Assembly: GCA_903813345.2 (NCBI GenBank)
Contig: CAIIXF020000006.1
Span: 18,857,936 to 18,921,935, forward strand
Length of the DNA stretch: 64,000 nucleotides
Reading direction: 5' to 3'
From: Owenia fusiformis
Lineage: Eukaryota; Annelida; Polychaeta; Sabellida; Oweniidae
Both the position numbers and the translations under genes were made by a program. Positions 40,438 to 61,400 of the stretch are shown piece after piece (positions within the stretch are counted from its first letter, which is position 1; every line of letters begins with the position of its first letter). Below the pieces are notes generated by a model that was not told the origin of the DNA, made no database searches, and saw only the letters and a list, made by a program, of their open reading frames with translations.

Positions 40438-43400
40438 CTGGAAACACATACATATGAATAACACATAATTATGATAATGTAGGCAACTCATGTTTTTGAG
40501 TCTCTCTAAACCTACCTTAATCAACCATGCGGTACAAACTTCGACCGTTAATTTAAATTTTTGACCTACCAGGTGTTTGAAAATCAAGGATTGCGAGTCT
40601 CATACTGCACCGTTTTTCTTCAAACTTGTTCCATTCAAAGCATAACAAAAATGCCTTTCTGTTGGTACATTATTCTGCTATACAGAGTCCCTACTTTCAG
40701 TGGCATTTGGGTCCCCAGCTGTGAGAAGGGCTTCTCACAACTGGGGAAACCAAAACGCTGCTGAAACGAGCGACTCTTTTCAAAAAAGCAGGTCAAAAAT
40801 TTTAATTAACGGTTGAAGTTTGTACCGCGTGTCAACCTTAAATTCATCCTTGCAGCAAGTATATAGTATTTTATAGAATTTAAGCATAAATGAAGTCTTT
40901 TGAAGAAGAGTGCCTTAATTCTACACATTTCCACATTTGCAATCAAACTTTTTTCATGACACTGTCATTAGTTAAAACTGAAACAACAAGTTTATTTGTA
41001 GACTATTTGTTAAGCTATTGGGAATAATAATTTACATGTCCTGTAACTGTACCTGGTTTACTTAGTTTTTCTTTCTTCTTTTCTTCTGATGGCATTTGGA
41101 TTCTATATGTTTTGTTGCTCTTTGGATCTGGCAGGTTCCTAAATCTAGATCTATCTTTCTTTCTTCTATCTGAAACATAAATCATCATATTTTTAAAATT
41201 TGAAAGTCATGCCCTGACTCTTTCTTTGCTAAATTCATGGTGACATCCCAGGTTTTACTAGACTTCAGTTGATATTATAGGAACCCAACTCCCATACTGT
41301 ATATCTTTATTAACACTTATAAATTAGTAAGCAGAATTGAACAGAATTGAACTTTGACAAACTATAGTTGAAAATTAGATATATAAGATATTTCTTAAAA
41401 AATTTAATCAATGATTTTTGATCTGTATAGTAAAGAATATAGTTCCACAAGTTTTTCACTTAACATACCACATATCTCTTTCCAGATTGTTCTATTCTTC
41501 ATAAACTTTTTGCAATTTAGAGAGACACTGCAAAGATGTTTATGTAAAATGAAGATGGGAACTTCAAGTTTCTATCATTCATTGTAAAAATGAAATGTTT
41601 GGTGGAATGAACTTTTTATATCTTTGGGTGAAGTGTGACTTTCACAAAATATTACTTTATTCATTTGAATCCACAGCCAGCTTCCTAAAAAACATTTAAT
41701 TTTCCAAATAGGGATGAAATAGACCTCCCTCCATTTATCTTGCAGCTGTAAATTTCCTATTATCATTATGAATTGTTTTACCACATGAGAAAACATGTGC
41801 TTTATGCGTTATCATTCATACTTTCATAGATAGCTGCCCAGTCACATGCTACCACATGCTTCCATATTGTTACAATACAATGACACATATGTTCAGTGAA
41901 TGGTAAATGGTGTCTCATTCACTGTAGCTAGTTATGGTTTTCAATTTTTCTTGAAATCATGAACTGCCAAGAATTATCCATATGATATCCATTTTTGGAT
42001 ACATGTATATTTCTGTTATTTTTGGTAACTGTCAGTTTAAAATTTACACACATGTAGTCTGATGCTGTTATTTCCATTAGACAAATTGAAATAACATTGT
42101 AACTGAACCCTAATGCCCTTTTGACTAGATCCTTTCAGACACTTCAGAAATGTATCCACTGATATAGACTGATTGGTGTTGTTCATTTAGACAGAGGTGT
42201 TCAATGAACAGACAGGTGTTCACTGAGACAGACAGGTGTTCACTGAGACAGACAGGTGTTCACTGAGACAGACAGGTGTTCACTGAGACAGAGAGGTGTT
42301 CACTGAGACAGACAGGTGTTCACTGAGACAGACAGATGTTCACTAAGACAGAGAGGTGTTCATTAAAACAGGTTTAACTGTATATCTAATCCTCAACAGA
42401 TCTCAATCTCTATTATCTAGATAAGATGTAAACAGCTCCCTTCCTCCATTGTACTTTAGTTACACAACGATTGGTTATGAAACTTCAACACCCAAAGCTA
42501 AAACTACACCCTAGTCATGGCTATTCCTCTCCGAAATAAATAAATAATAGACCATATTCATAGTATTTCTTGGATGATTTGAAGTATCAACTGCCTAAGC
42601 AACACCCTGTTTTTTATTTCTTTTTATTTCCTACAAATAAACTCCTTTTTGTTAATTGAAACAGAACCATCATGAATTTTTATGCCCGAGCATAAAATTG
42701 TATATAAACCTGAATTTTCAACACATCTCCACAATAACCAGCTCCAAGCTCAAACAACATACAGCAACACAGACAACCTCAACCAACGTGAAGATCAACA
42801 AGATGACAAGCAAATTGATGACTGCAACCCTCCTGGTGGTGCTCCCAAGCATCTGCTTAGGCTTCCTCCTTGAGGATATCTTTGGGAAACCCCCTGCAAC
42901 AGTTGAACGTGTCGAGGTCCCAAAATATCTCGGCAGATGGTACCAGGTCTACTCTAACAACAATCTCTGGAACTCTTTCCTGAGGAATGCCGTCTGTATC
43001 ACAGCTGACTACAGAGCTATCAACGCAACTACCATCTCAGTACTGAACTCAAACCGTATCAAGACCCCCGATGGCCCTTTGGATCAGATCACAGGATTCG
43101 GATACAAGACTGAGACTGAGGGACAACTCTCTGTACAACTAGCTGGAGTCCCAGTGGCAGCACCTTGTAAGTAGATACTTTGGGGATTTCTCTATACTAC
43201 AGTAGTATACAATATACATGTACAACCAATTACTGTTCCTCATTTTTTCTTTAATGAGCAGATGTCATACTTCAGAATCAAAACCTGGTCAAATCAGCCT
43301 AATGAATCAAATTCTCCTATTTGGTTGATAAGGTTTTTGAGGTTTTGTTTTCTGTTTACAAATTTGACTCCAATTCGAAAATCAAAGGACTCTCAGTAAC

Positions 43401-46400
43401 GCAAGCTCATATTTTATTTCAGATTGGATCATCAAGCTTGGACCAGTTGTAAATGGCCAATACCAATACTCCATAGTCTCTGACCCAATTCGTTATGCAC
43501 TATTCGTCCTCGCCAGAGACCCACAGGAATTTGCTGAGAAGTACGACAAAGAGGTCTTGAGCTACTTGGAAGGAGAGAAATTCACTGACTTTGAAAACAA
43601 ACCAATGGAGGTGTACAGTGGAAAGGATTGTCTCTTTGCCGATGTCCCTCCACAGTAATACTGAGAACCAACCATATTTATGAACATTTATTTATTTTTT
43701 TGTACGTGACCTGATCTGAATAAATTCCATGTAAAGATAATTCAATATTATAGTTTTGGTGACTTTTTGAACATGATGAAAACTGCTACTGGATTACTCA
43801 ATACCAAAGTTGATTATGCCATTTCAAAACATGATTAAAATCAAATAAAACAGTTAACTTCACATAAATCCATACTAACAAATTAATTAGCTCTAATTTT
43901 TACAATCTCTTGATTTTTAGTTTCATTTCATAATTGAATTTAGACGATGGTGTAAATTAAAACATTCCTAAATAAAAAAAATTAAGAAATTGCGATTTTC
44001 AATATTTTGGAAAAGCAGGCACCAGTTATGTACAAGCATTACTTAAATATTACACACAAACAATTTACTATGATTCATTTTGCCCTAAATATGACAAATT
44101 TGATTTACTGGTATTTGAGTAATTACTCTAAATTGCTCTATTTCATCTCACCAGATCCTGGGCTATAGCGAAATAAGGTTGTCATGACAAAATGCCATCA
44201 CCTTTTATATTATAGTAAATGGTTACAATTTGCTACAGACACTGACTGATAACCACTGCCAAATATTGAACACCAGTCACAAAAAATGGTAGCTGTAACA
44301 ATATGTCACAACTTCTTTGTGGTGACATAAAAATATGAATCAAATCTACTTACTTCTATCATCTGAGTCATTGTCGTCATCATTTGGCTCTGAAATAAAA
44401 ATTTAGGACGTTTGACAATTCATATTTACATCATTTTCTGTTTTTACTTTTTGATAGGCCTACAACTTTTATTCAAAAACTTACTGAACACATTGTGCAT
44501 GATCTTTCTGCCATTTTTTGTTTGCCCTGGAGAGAGGGATTCAGGATCAGAAATGGGGATCAATGACCAGGAGATGGGACCAAGGGTCTGGATATTAGGG
44601 GAAGGGAAAGAGAATGGGGATCTAAGGCCTGGATTTTTAGATTGAGACCCCGAAGATAGGGATCAATGGCAATTTATTTAAGTAACACCAATCAGCTCTA
44701 CATTGTAGTCAATTATCATTAATTTATGATCATATCATACATAATTTGAGAAGTTTGGCTCAGAAATGGAATTTCAGGAACTTATATACAAATATACAAT
44801 AAATCACATGCAATATATCACTGTACCACTTCTCAGATATTTGGGGTTGAAAGAATACACAAACAAATGATTTCTAAATTAGTATATACAAATACAGAAC
44901 GAGCAAATATGCATATCAAATAACAAGCATTTTTGTATTGGATTTAGTACAATAGACATGCATTAAATAAATTATTTTTCAATTTTTAGTCATTTTAGTC
45001 CTTCTGTCAACCCCAGTTATTCTGCCATACTAGTGTAGTACAGTATAATGCAATACAGTAATAGTAGTAGAGTAGAACATCTCTGTATGCAGAACACTTC
45101 AGAGGCTCACAGCACAACTGATGACTTAATGTTTAATGAATCTCTATAAGTGGGCTACTTTTTAGAGGTACCAAAACTTTCTAAAAGTGTTCAACTTACA
45201 CAGCATTTACTGTATTTGCATCATACCGGACATCATGGACATACAGAACATTTCCATGTTTTTTCCAGACATGGCTATTGCATATTTCATATTAAGGCAT
45301 CATAGTCAACATAAAATAACACTAACTAATGACAATCAGTTGAATGCATCATTCAAATTGTGTAAAACATTTCAAGAAAATTGTGTTCTTTAAAATCATG
45401 TATTTTAATTACACCATATAATTCGAGATATCATTTTTAATATGATTACATACCTGAAATTTTCAGGCCCCCAAGACTAGAATTGAGCTTGGTGGGGGTC
45501 CCTCCTAAAAATTATTATAGTCTGATATAAATGAATTGTGTAAACAAAACCAATTTTCTGGCCATTTGTTAAAATTAGATCATGAATTGTCACTAAAAGT
45601 TAGTATAGGTTAATTTGACTAATGCACACAATAATTCAGTGTTATGCACAGCCTCAAGACCCAAAAACTAAACTTTACTAATATACACTGTTGGTCAAAT
45701 ATATGGAATATTATAAGGCATTTCATAAAAATCAGTATGCTGTCTTTATAATAAGAATTATGATTTATTTGAAGACTCAGATGGATTATAAAGTTTTAAT
45801 TCCTGGGAAATGAAAAATGTTGTTCAATGTGTTTATTTTATTTTTTATGACCATTCTATGAAAAAATATTTGAAAAATCTCCATTCATTAAAATCTAAGA
45901 GGGCATTGAAAATGAGGAAATCAATGGTAAATAAATATTCCACATATATGAGCAATGGTGTAAGCCCTCTATTTATTTATATTGGCCTACTACCCAATTG
46001 TCTATATATTCTTGAAGATATGTACAAGACTGTATGTGGAGCAGAACATAACACTAACTAATAACTATAAAACTTAAATAAAATTGAAAATGCATTAACC
46101 AAAACCATGCGTAAAGAATGTAATCAGGTAATTTTTAATGGTTCAGGCCCGTAGCCAGGGGGGGTTCGCAGGGTTCGGGCGAACCCCCCCCCCCTGGCCA
46201 AAAATTCTTTCAAAATCATGCAGTTTTTCACCATTTTGAGCACTTCTCAAGTGATTTTAGCCATATTTGGGCCAAAATTGTCAAATGTGAACCCCCCCTG
46301 GAAATTTTTGAAAAATGAACCCCCCCCTTGGCAAATCCTGGCTACGGGCCTGTGGTTTATATTCTATTGAATTAATCTCAAGTTAACAAAAGTATGGCAC

Positions 46401-52400: not shown

Positions 52401-55400
52401 CAACAAGTGAATAAAATTCCATCACAAAAAACTCATTGGATATGATATTTATCTTATAGTGCATCCATATAATCAATGATGCATATCATGTTTTTTCATT
52501 GCATGAGGCTCACTAGAATCATTATATCATATAATCAATGATGCATATCATGTTTTTTCATTGCATGAGGCTCACTAGAATCATTATATCACATTGCACA
52601 ACAGTGGCCAGACTTTCCCAAATCTGTGGAAAAAATAACCTTCAAATATTTTTATATTTGATATTTTCCATGTTAAACACATATTAGGTTGTTCCATACA
52701 TTTGAAAAATTAAAGAACATTGATATGAATATATGTTACCATACAGACTTGATCTTATCTGTGGGATAAGCTCCTTTATCAGCTTAACTGCTTTAAAGTT
52801 AATATATTTCTGCTTCTACAAAAGGCCCTCACATTTAAATTGTTTGTTTAGCTGGATTTTTTTCAATAAATACCCAAATAAGACACTGCTAAACAGACAA
52901 TCAATATGGAAGGGCCTAATTCCAATGTACAAGAGCCAGATAGAGGGCAGCCAATATATTCAATGAAATCAAACCTTGGGGAATTTCGAATGCGAGTATC
53001 TCCAGACTCAGATGAATTCCTATTCTTATCCTTGAGATATTTCCTGCCATCAAATGTGCTAAAATAAAATACGTGTATATGCATATTAGGATCTCAATGA
53101 ATCTTGTCAAATGAGAGAAAATAAACAAGATTATCAAGAGTAAAATTCCCCATCATTTCTAGGCCAAATATTATTTTCCAGCTCTGATACAAAATTTTAC
53201 ATTTTAGGCTTTTTGCCTAATTTCAAAGCTCCCTCACATTTCCAGCACTAAAAACCCTATCAAAGCATAGCATACATTCTCATACTCATCCCATTGCTCT
53301 GTTTTGCCACCACATGATGTTCTATTACAATGACATGGACTTATCTATTAATAAAGCTTAATTAAAATACCTTAAATATCTTAAATATATTTTTTATTCC
53401 TTTGAGTCTTGTTAAGTTCAATTATATTTCTTACTTTACATATTATGATACAGCTAGTTATAATCTGGACCTTCAACATTCCCGGAGGGTTCAGATTAAA
53501 CAGTGTTTATATTCTATTATAATGTATATAGTGATGTATTAACTTATATTAAGCAATTTTGACCTTCAATTTATTCCTCAAAAATTAAAAAGTTACTATG
53601 AAATTTTTAACAGAATATTTTTGGGATACCAGCTCATCTATATAGAATCTATTTCTTTATAGGAGGTGCTGGAATAATACACATGATGAAATGAGAATTT
53701 AGAGCAGGATTTTTGTGATGGCCCCTGAAGGGACAAAAGAAAACGTGACTCTACAGTGAACAGAATTGTTTCCAGTTACCTGTCAGATTTGTTATCAGAT
53801 GGCATACTTTCATCTTCATCATCATCTGAACTTCCTTCATCGTCAGGATCAACCACATCACTCTCATAACCCTCCTGTAATACCAAAATATATTCAAGGC
53901 ATTAAAATGCAAAATATCATCACCTGCCATTTGTTACAGATGGCATACTTTCATCTTCATCATCATCTGAACTTCCTTCATCATCAGGATCAACCACATC
54001 ACTCTCATAACCCTCCTGTAATACCAAAATATATTCAAGGCATTAAAATGCAAAATATCATCACCTGCCATTTGTTACAGATGGCATACGTTCATATTCA
54101 TCATCATCTGAACTTCCTTCATCGTCAGGATCAACCACATCACTCTCATAACCTTTCTGTAATACCGAAACATATTCAAGGTTTTAAAATGCAAAATATC
54201 ACCACCTGCCATCTGTTACAGATGCCAATCACCAACTGCCAAACACCAGCCACAAAAAAGTTGGGAGACTAACAAAATGCTGAAATCCTGAGAGTGGGTA
54301 CTGGTGGGTATGTAAGGCAGACGGAACAGTCCACTTGGACAAATATCAGTTTTATCATTTTGATACTTAGACCACCTCTACCTTGCAAAAATTGTACCAT
54401 GGGGGACTGACAGTTGATCTGTTGAGTTATTACAATGCAGTTTAAATATCAATTTTAAATAAACAAAGAACTGTTATGATAAGTCATCAACCTTAACAAT
54501 GACATCACTATAACAGCATTATTATTTCTCGAATGGATGCAAAATTCTAATTTTCACAATTTTGAAAGTAAAAGTACAGTAAAATATGTTTATTTTTAAT
54601 ATTTTTCTCATTTTCAACTCAAGGCACATAGGGTTTCAAACTCCCTATTGGTTGCAGCGTACTGCATCACTGCTGAGCAGATCACTGCTATGTTACATTT
54701 CTAAAATGTCTTACCTTTAAGTTCTCTACCACTTCAATATGATCTAACTCAGCTAGATATTCATCTCCATACTGGTGACCATCCTAGAAAGCATGGACAT
54801 GTATAAATTACATTAGAATGAATTGTCCCATTGGTCTCATGGTTTCAGTTCCTGAATAATGAAAGGGGTGGTGTTACTTTGTGTGTTAAGTCATTGTTAG
54901 ACATATATGGAGTTTACTTTCCATGTAATTGGTTATACATTTAGATGTTCCCTTTTCTTGTTGCGTTCTGAAATACTCATTGTTTCTCATTTTGGGATTT
55001 GTGATATTACACATGTAAATCAAAACAAAGCCATGAAGTAAAGTGAATGGAAAGAATGAAGATTACAACATTTTTGTTTTAAAAAAAGAGATTAGTACCA
55101 AAAACATAGATTCTGAAGAAAATTCATTTTCCTACCTCATTAGCACCTTGTTCAGTTAGCAATTGTCCAGCGTATATACAGATAAACCCCCCAGCTTGAA
55201 TGTCATCTAAACACCGGAGACCCCAACCTCTATAAAATAAATAAACTACTTTATTATATGAAATACATAAATACAAAATTAACTTATGAATTAAACTATT
55301 ATCATATTTGGTTTTGTGAACAAGGAAATCTTTTATTCATTTGTTATTACCTTTTTTCAGTCTTAAATACTTGAAGTCTGAGGGAGAGAGGTTGCTGGGC

Positions 55401-58400: not shown

Positions 58401-61400
58401 GTATTTTCCATTTTTATTTCTATTTTAAAATATAACCCCCATGACATATTTTAGATTTTATCAACCTTCGAAAGAACTGACCTTTAACCTCATCAACTGA
58501 CTCTGCTTCCCCTCTGGTGTATTCAACGAATGGTTTCTTATTGCTTTTAATATGTGGCACATGTCTTCTGGCCTTAGCACCCATGCTCTTAGAATGCTCA
58601 GCATTAGACTGAAATCAAAAACAAGGAATTTAAAAAGAATCATCAAAAATATAATCTTGGTATCATACCCTGATAGATAGCAGGATCATATACGATTCAA
58701 TTTTTAATGGCTCATTTAAAGTAGAATAAAATAAATTAAATAAAAAAAGGAAAACCCTGAAATTTGCAAACGTTGGTTGGATTTTTTATCTTCAATGGCA
58801 AAAATGCTTTTAAGAAAAAAATGATCACATTATAGCACTGGAGGATGTGATAAAAAAGGTTTTAATCAGGGACGCTGCAGTAAAACAAAGCAAACCATAC
58901 ACTCACCAATTCTGTATAGAGTGGTTCTAGTCTTGTTGAGCCTCTGTAGATCCATTCAACACGTCTGTCAGCATCAAAGTACATCTTCACCAGACTAGCA
59001 TCAACCTCATGTACCTTGGCTGTCCACCATGCCCCATTCCATTCAGTTTTGATAATCTGACCTGCTTGAAGTCTTACCATGGGGCGCTATTAATGTGAAG
59101 TTTTTATTTAGATTAGTTTCTAAATGGTGGAGGCGGGGGTATTAGACACCTCCATCGTATCGTTGCATTGTAGGATGGATTTCTAATATGCTTTGGTATG
59201 CTGGAGTATTGTTTCCTAATGACCTGTTGTGCTATTAAATCTTCCTTTTCTATATGTATTCTAAAATATTTTTGGTCTTTAACATTTATTATGGTATATG
59301 TGCTTTGGAGTTTCATCATAGCACAATGTCAAAGATGAAAGTGTAGATATTATAATCTGCCTATGTAGAGCCTCTTTTAGGCAGTCATATGAGCTTGCCT
59401 GAGGATCAACATTGAAATCTTGGTTAAAACAGTTCCTAGAGAGATGAACATTGTATGATGTACATACCTCTGGGTATTGTGCTAAGTAGCCTTTGATGAA
59501 ATCCTGAGAGTCTGGATGGATGTCTTCCCAAACATTCCTGCTTTGTTCATACACCTTGTGTATTTCTTTCATGCTACAGTACTGGGCATAGCCATCATCA
59601 AAGAACACCAAATACCTGAGATATATATAAGAAATACAAGTAATAAATGTATATTCTTGTTTTGTTCATAAAAAATGTGTAAATAATATTCCATGCCAAA
59701 GTATTGAGCGTAGCAATTATCATAGAACACTAAATACCCGAGTTACTTTTGTGAAAATGTCATATCTATGTATACCTGTATCTGTTCGTGACGCTTGGAG
59801 GTTCTGCGATGATACCAGCATAATGGGACTTCCCTCCATCATCATCTTTGTACAGGGCTGGAAACACAATGTTTACATGTCACAAGTGCCATGTTTAAAC
59901 AAGTAAAATGCCAAGTAAATGAATGGAATCAACCAGGAATACTATATACAGGTGTGTATTACACACTTTAAATTCCAAGGAAATTCAAAGTGAACATTTG
60001 TGAGCATGAAGTTACTGTTTAATCATAGGGGTCAGCATTGTAGTCACGTTAAGGTTGCAAACAGTGGAAAGCCTCTTGCTGTACATGTACTAAGAAGCCA
60101 CACCAGTTTGACTACCCTGGGTTATGCAAAACTATATTTGATCAGCCCTATAGACCTATAGCCCTCAACCCTATAAAAATATATCAGTATACATACCACA
60201 TATTCTACTGCCTACAATAATGCCTACACTTGGTTTATCAGCCAGGGCAATATCTTTCCCAGTAAGCAACTTCACACCCTTTGAGTCATACTTTACTTTG
60301 TATTTTCTCTGGAAATATACACATATTAAGATTAATAATATACAAGGGCATTTTTTACAAATCTAGTTTCTAAACAATGTCTATTCTCACAAAATGGCTA
60401 TTTATTTCAATTTTGTTTTTAGTTTTGTCAATGTTAAATATTTTACTTTTTATTATTGCTAAAAAAACTAATTCAATACATACACATAGTGTGGGTCTTG
60501 GGATTTTTCTATCATTTGCCAATTGGTATTGTGTTTTCACACTCACCAATGAAAAATTACACTCGCCATAGTGTTGCCACTGATGATGAATTATATGTAT
60601 ACTCACAGTTTTCTAGTGAATAAAAATCTTTAAAAAGAAAGTAATATGTTTATGAAAGTACATAAAATTAGCTTTGTTCTATAATATTCAACAAAGGCGA
60701 ATTTCATGTTTTTAATATTCGACAATGTGACAAGGCACTTCAATTTCACACTAGACTCTAAATAAATCCGCCCAGGGCTACTGTCGAGTGGATATGACCC
60801 ACACTGACACAGGGTGTGAATGACTCAAGTCTTACCAAATCTAAAGTTTTTCCTAGTCCTATTATTTCAATGAGGGTCCCTTTATACCAGACATCATTGT
60901 TTTTCCTTGCATACAGCTTCATTCCTACAGTCAATTCTCTGCAAAATATTCAGCAACATTTAACTATTCAAAATTTGATTAAAGACTTTATTCTTAAGTT
61001 GATCTGCTGATTACTTCAAAAGATCTTATACTCATTTCATTTCTAATAATTCAACACTTACTTATTATGGATACCAATTTACACTTAAATATCACTCCCA
61101 TAATTACTGATACCAGCTTATATACCCTTGCTTCCTGACCTGACACATTTTCACAAAAAAATGCTCACATGATTCTAAGTGGAGGTTTAGACTGGAGTTC
61201 ATCACAAAAATATATGTTTGAATGATTTTAAGTGGAGGTTTAGACTAGGGTTAATCACAAAAATATACATGTACAGTAAAACCTGTATATCTGAACACCT
61301 GGCTAATCCGAACACCTTCCAATTTGAACACTTTTTTTCGGTCCCATTTTTTCCTCCCATTGACTCCCATGTTAAAAAAACCTTGAAATCTGAACACCTC

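Follow-up and report, generated by a model that had tools for sequence, protein, structure and literature searches.

Exon ends from a dispersed repeat in a tandem exon array of SETDB1 in Owenia fusiformis: a probable repeat-mediated duplication with one presumed working copy

Splice sites derived from repeats can be drawn into genes by exonization, for which Alu in primates is an example. Duplicated exons placed side by side form a second described class of system. Passages of a human survey of mutually exclusive exons give lengths not divisible by three for 60% of clusters and possible steric interference for 9% (PMC5740500), and in Drosophila hydra, as partly described in PMC9013439, the initial exon has been duplicated repeatedly to yield seven copies flanked by DINE-1. 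Here we describe an array with features of both classes in a 64,000-nt stretch of Owenia fusiformis DNA (hereafter the window, whose coordinates are used throughout), where three adjacent homologous exons with splice sites form a tandem exon duplication within one gene, SETDB1. We read the array as the product of repeat-mediated tandem duplication in which the functional exon is the one with the donor at 53780, the extra copies being silent or minor, and on the sequence features set out below we give this reading a probability of roughly 0.7. Among the papers listed for a SETDB1 exon array, none visibly described one, which is weak evidence.

The gene lies on the minus strand and combines Tudor, MBD and Pre-SET domains with a SET domain that an insertion divides in two, the composition that assigns it to SETDB1. 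Two of its Tudor exons, joined, match solved structures: a chain named SETDB1 at E 5.5e-39 and one named eggless at E 1e-30. A Pfam scan of an exon-pair peptide returned no family. In the gene Pfam recognizes MBD, Pre-SET and two SET parts, the first of which scores 22.4 bits, exactly the Pfam cut-off, while the last is read at 39.6-39.9 kb. The array is bracketed upstream by an exon at 54715..54783 (-), which ends at a codon boundary with the donor AAG/GTAAGA, and downstream by an exon at 52975..53043 (-), which enters in phase 2. In the intron after 52975, a 62-bp segment stands twice in tandem without a mismatch (52466-52591). Open frames are also present on the plus strand at 42800-43660 and, from the look of their sequence, presumably resemble an apolipoprotein-D-like lipocalin.

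In gene-sense order the minus-strand copies are c3 (54065..54156, 92 nt), c2 (53924..54015, 92 nt) and c1 (53780..53874, 95 nt), all with open frames. The first two end in MPSVTNG, c3 with the repeat A donor GCAG/GTGATG and c2 with a likewise repeat-derived donor; c1, the presumed working exon, ends in MPSDNKSD with the donor ACAG/GTAACT. The altered residues fall in the acidic stretch between the SET halves. Beneath the exons lies a 141-bp unit repeated three times in register (53796-53936, 53937-54077 and 54078-54218; tandem score 790), each unit comprising the 3' end of a dispersed repeat, an acceptor and an exon body. The would-be introns from c3 to c2 (54016..54064, -) and from c2 to c1 (53875..53923, -) are each 49 nt long and identical in sequence, and the first part of the former is the 3' end of the repeat. 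An earlier, sequence-only reading had proposed three tandem copies with donors at 53780, 53924 and 54065, lengths of 95, 92 and 92 nt, open frames and a tail changed from SDNKSD to SVTNG; coordinates and translation agree with it on all of these points.

The same reading held that a dispersed repeat supplied the new exon ends and donors, and the genome-wide searches, which covered the 498-Mb assembly (525 contigs), confirm it. A 36-base word running from the c2/c3 junction into the repeat, which we call repeat A, is found at 1,581 places (790 + 791) with at most 3 mismatches, against 0 for its reversed control. Twenty-one copies can be aligned from roughly 120 bases ahead of the start of this word to roughly 60 bases past it. 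The 3' end of repeat A, CAGGTGRTGAYATTTTGCATGTTAATGCCTTG, is in essence the sequence that follows c2 and c3, so the repeat accounts for the last codons of both copies, for their donor and for the beginning of the 49-nt intron; the predicted donor is a repeat-derived splice site, sitting as it does in sequence shared with a dispersed element. The repeat origin of the c2 and c3 exon ends is solid. A further copy of repeat A, represented by its 3' portion, lies in the intron at 54177..54275 (-; left limit judged by eye), and some 20 nt separate its 3' end from the acceptor of c3 that follows.

How the repeat came to end an exon may be seen at c1. Its tail, TGCCATCTGATAACAAATCTGACAG (53780..53804, -), resembles the end of repeat A: tail and donor agree with it in 22 of 27 columns, for a score of 26. 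When the tail was resampled 5,000 times, 0.06% of the results scored as high, a value unadjusted for the choice of site. Duplications occur where similarity exists, so the low chance value alone is no proof that the tail came from the repeat. A derivation of the tail from another repeat copy was considered and rejected, as a 107-bp probe of c1 tail and downstream intron matched only itself, and because of this the end of c1 looks like ordinary gene sequence. Its likeness to the repeat would then be fortuitous, and would make the tail a suitable site for unequal exchange. Exchange at a shared CAGATG word had been suggested; the site does fit the CATCTG/CAGATG word and its flanks, but the similarity is a wider patch, the 27 columns just described.

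Exchange of this kind is plausible, and we envisage a starting state in which a repeat A element sat in the intron just upstream of the exon. Either unequal exchange or slippage during replication, acting between the exon-tail patch and the end of the repeat, would then have produced a 141-bp duplication, each extra copy exchanging the last codons and donor of the exon for repeat sequence. A first duplication may have given c3 and c1, and a later, second event c2.

The divergence among the units bears on this order. A single silent change in 141 positions separates c1 from c2, and 11 of 141 positions set c3 apart from c2 (6 of 62 on the intron side and 5 of 79 in the exon). These values, taken without an outgroup, suggest that c3 is the oldest copy, with c3 and c1 arising first and c2 recently. 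They also bear on a possible origin of the array in misassembly, in favour of which the 99% identity of c1 and c2 could be cited. The differences in c3, the shortness of the array (about 430 bp), the specific exon-repeat junction at which the units end and the failure of a protein probe to find a second locus all speak against it, and we consider it extremely improbable. That 58-aa probe found four places in the assembly, all within the SETDB1 gene, and so yielded no retrocopy of SETDB1 that might record exon choice; a 466-base probe of the array gave 42 matches, one of which spans the whole array (40 of 1,154 candidates scored).

Decay, where there has been time for it, is to be sought in c3, as c2 is too young to show any. 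The start of the c3 exon has changed from GAG to AAA (E to K), and D to Y and S to R replacements follow; with 5 of 79 exon positions differing between c3 and c2, there are too few differences for a comparison of selection between the copies. The consensus of the branch point is YTNAY. One such word, TTAAT, occurs in the 49-nt introns, and the final 70 bases of the intron that leads to c3 have none; since TTAAT is also the reading of the repeat consensus, it is on the c3 side that a branch-point-like word has been lost. Elsewhere in the gene, an old decayed duplicate of part of a Tudor exon (59623-59534) is seen at 59653-59745 (-). It has an open frame and 70 of 93 columns identical, and its acceptor CAG is now CGG. 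This offers a precedent for decay within SETDB1 and one possible fate of the extra copies. Given the changes at the start and acceptor side of c3 and a Tudor duplicate that keeps its frame with its acceptor gone, open frames and splice sites do not show use.

The upstream exon was translated through every possible set of copies into three downstream exons, and each single copy gave an open frame. Counted from the start of the upstream exon, a stop follows at 28 residues with no copy, at 80 or 125 with any two and at 80 with all three, in keeping with the earlier claim that one copy keeps the frame and two or three do not. The copies are thus interchangeable in frame and disabling when included jointly, as mutually exclusive exons are. 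The rule is inherited, however, because the length of the parent exon is 2 mod 3, and an interchangeable frame is expected from any duplicate of such an exon; the lengths are therefore no signature of mutual exclusion or of regulation, and here we depart from the sequence-only reading, which took them as one. The sole coincidence is that the donor supplied by the repeat keeps the phase, a one-in-three event.

Intron size is a stronger argument than this arithmetic and was absent from the earlier reading. The introns between neighbouring copies would measure 49 nt, and no other SETDB1 intron placed by eye is shorter than 121 nt (55350-55230). In the 49-nt introns the single YTNAY adenine, the predicted branch point, stands at position 22. 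Passages of PMC7969005 and PMC5740500 quote a steric threshold of ~50 nt from donor to branch point. The distance between neighbours falls well below it, which makes the splicing of adjacent copies to each other unlikely. From c3 to c1 the intron is 190 nt, with branch-like words at 75, 81 and 163, and by the same measure splicing between these two is predicted to be free of steric hindrance. A working set of mutually exclusive exons, with one of the three chosen at a time and SETDB1 isoforms that differ in the linker following the first half of SET, would accord with these short introns, with a frame kept by exactly one copy and with the usable sites predicted in all copies. We nevertheless regard it as unlikely, since the frame rule comes from the parent exon, the pairing of c3 with c1 is sterically allowed, c3 is altered both at its exon start and at its branch-point word, and human events of this kind are, in the relevant passages of PMC9741552, mostly ancient, against a c2 that is all but identical to c1.

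Predicted donor strength does not separate c1 from the extra copies, and the three are about equal. Duplex energies with U1 are -8.0 kcal/mol for the c1 donor and -8.2 for those of c2 and c3, within the -4.9 to -10.0 spanned by 12 other SETDB1 donors, whose boundaries were chosen by eye. A native matrix built from these 12 donors, a small set, scores c1 at -1.7 and c2/c3 at -1.5, all three below all 12, and a human donor matrix gives 4.5 for c1 vs 3.2 for c2/c3. This parity, together with the intact frames of c2 and c3, counts against the silence of the extra copies. It favours inclusion at a low, unregulated level, with the resulting mRNA mostly aberrant or near-neutral, as does the placement of the altered residues in the acidic stretch; we take such inclusion to be a real, if tentative, possibility.

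Against low-level inclusion stands the predicted folding around the donors. Those of c2 and c3 are preceded by a short repeat-derived palindrome and are dearer to open than that of c1 at all four flanks: at 25, 40, 70 and 100 nt the costs are 4.0, 6.0, 3.8 and 4.0 kcal/mol for c1, 6.5, 7.3, 7.2 and 7.0 for c2, and 6.4, 7.1, 5.6 and 5.5 for c3. The costs for c2 and c3 are within the range of the 12 other SETDB1 donors (1.6-10.4 at flank 70).

The same palindrome invites the proposal of a docking-selector, in which competing RNA stems, formed from four left and three right arms, pick one exon. Complementary arms are duplicated with each unit, duplications of this type are proposed in part of PMC6071210 to create competing structures, and around c3 some competition among the repeat arms is predicted (mean pair probabilities 0.50, 0.32, 0.31 and 0.22). 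For the arms of c2 and c1, pairing with other arms is predicted to be all but absent (probabilities of at most 0.006), and the fold of the whole array is not significant (z -1.34, with 7 of 100 shuffles as good). With so weak an array fold and competition only around c3, the mechanism finds no real support in these predictions, and we judge it very improbable.

Whether repeat A could act elsewhere as it may have acted here depends partly on where its copies lie. We examined 100 copies that were close matches to the query word among the matches listed, a set that favours contig C1 and is not random. The longest open runs downstream in sense match 9 Pfam families (E up to 0.01), one member each; the antisense strand of the 100 copies gave one family with two members (best E 0.0045). 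Longest runs of at least 50 codons number 44 in sense and 32 in antisense (shuffle mean 28.3, maximum 41; paired test p 0.014). In a cruder count, an acceptor with an open frame downstream follows 28 of 100 copies in sense vs 22 of 100 in antisense (shuffle mean 21.7, maximum 31), which is not significant. Together these counts give a hint that repeat A may precede coding exons closely, in sense orientation, at more than the chance rate; if true, that position would make duplications of this kind likelier. By eye, the copies L015, L031, L043, L044, L054, L056, L057 and L099 seem to stop shortly before a coding exon on the sense strand.

Repeat A also occurs in arrays of its own. Two exact 13-base words 100-130 apart are found at 20 places (control 0), one of which lies in the SETDB1 array. 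At L115 (G000:C6:29422500-29423500) the repeat forms seven units with a period of about 131 bp, and other arrays, at G000:C1:23211966 and C10:18891243, have units near 60-62. Copies at L021 and L071, on different contigs, have downstream sequence in common, so that there repeat A sits inside a larger duplicated or repeated unit. The bolder proposition is that repeat A, tending to precede coding exons closely and in sense, is a portable handle for exon duplication, one that built mutually exclusive exons in a transposon-silencing gene, with donors and last codons made of repeat and exclusivity imposed from day one by 49-nt introns and frame; we hold this to be decidedly doubtful.

Under the repeat-mediated duplication that we favour, c1 would have stayed the working exon, and c2 and c3, each spliceable alone, would most likely be unused or minor. 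Were they used, only one copy could enter each good mRNA, because of the 49-nt introns between neighbours and because the frame is lost with none, two or three of them. Most studies of tandem exon duplicates concern old ones; this array includes a very young copy with readable breakpoints and a readable donor. It opens to testing how an accidental duplication might begin to turn into exclusive exons: whether steric and frame constraints are enough to impose use of a single copy at a time, and at what rate exons are copied by a repeat that lies near acceptors.

Among known systems, the human clusters of mutually exclusive exons, as characterized in passages of PMC5740500, are like the SETDB1 array in having homologous neighbours, compatible phase, a frame broken by joint inclusion and very short introns; the array differs in being known from sequence alone, in its repeat-derived tail and donor and in the very recent origin of one copy. 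Recurrent tandem exon duplication in company with a dispersed repeat is shared with Drosophila hydra, where, in the part of PMC9013439 that treats it, initial exons are concerned and some provide alternative start sites, whereas in SETDB1 an internal coding exon has been copied and its end and donor are themselves repeat. Both the SETDB1 array and the exonization of elements such as Alu take a splice site and coding letters from a repeat. Here, in contrast to exonization, the repeat gives only the last codons and the predicted donor of an exon that was duplicated.
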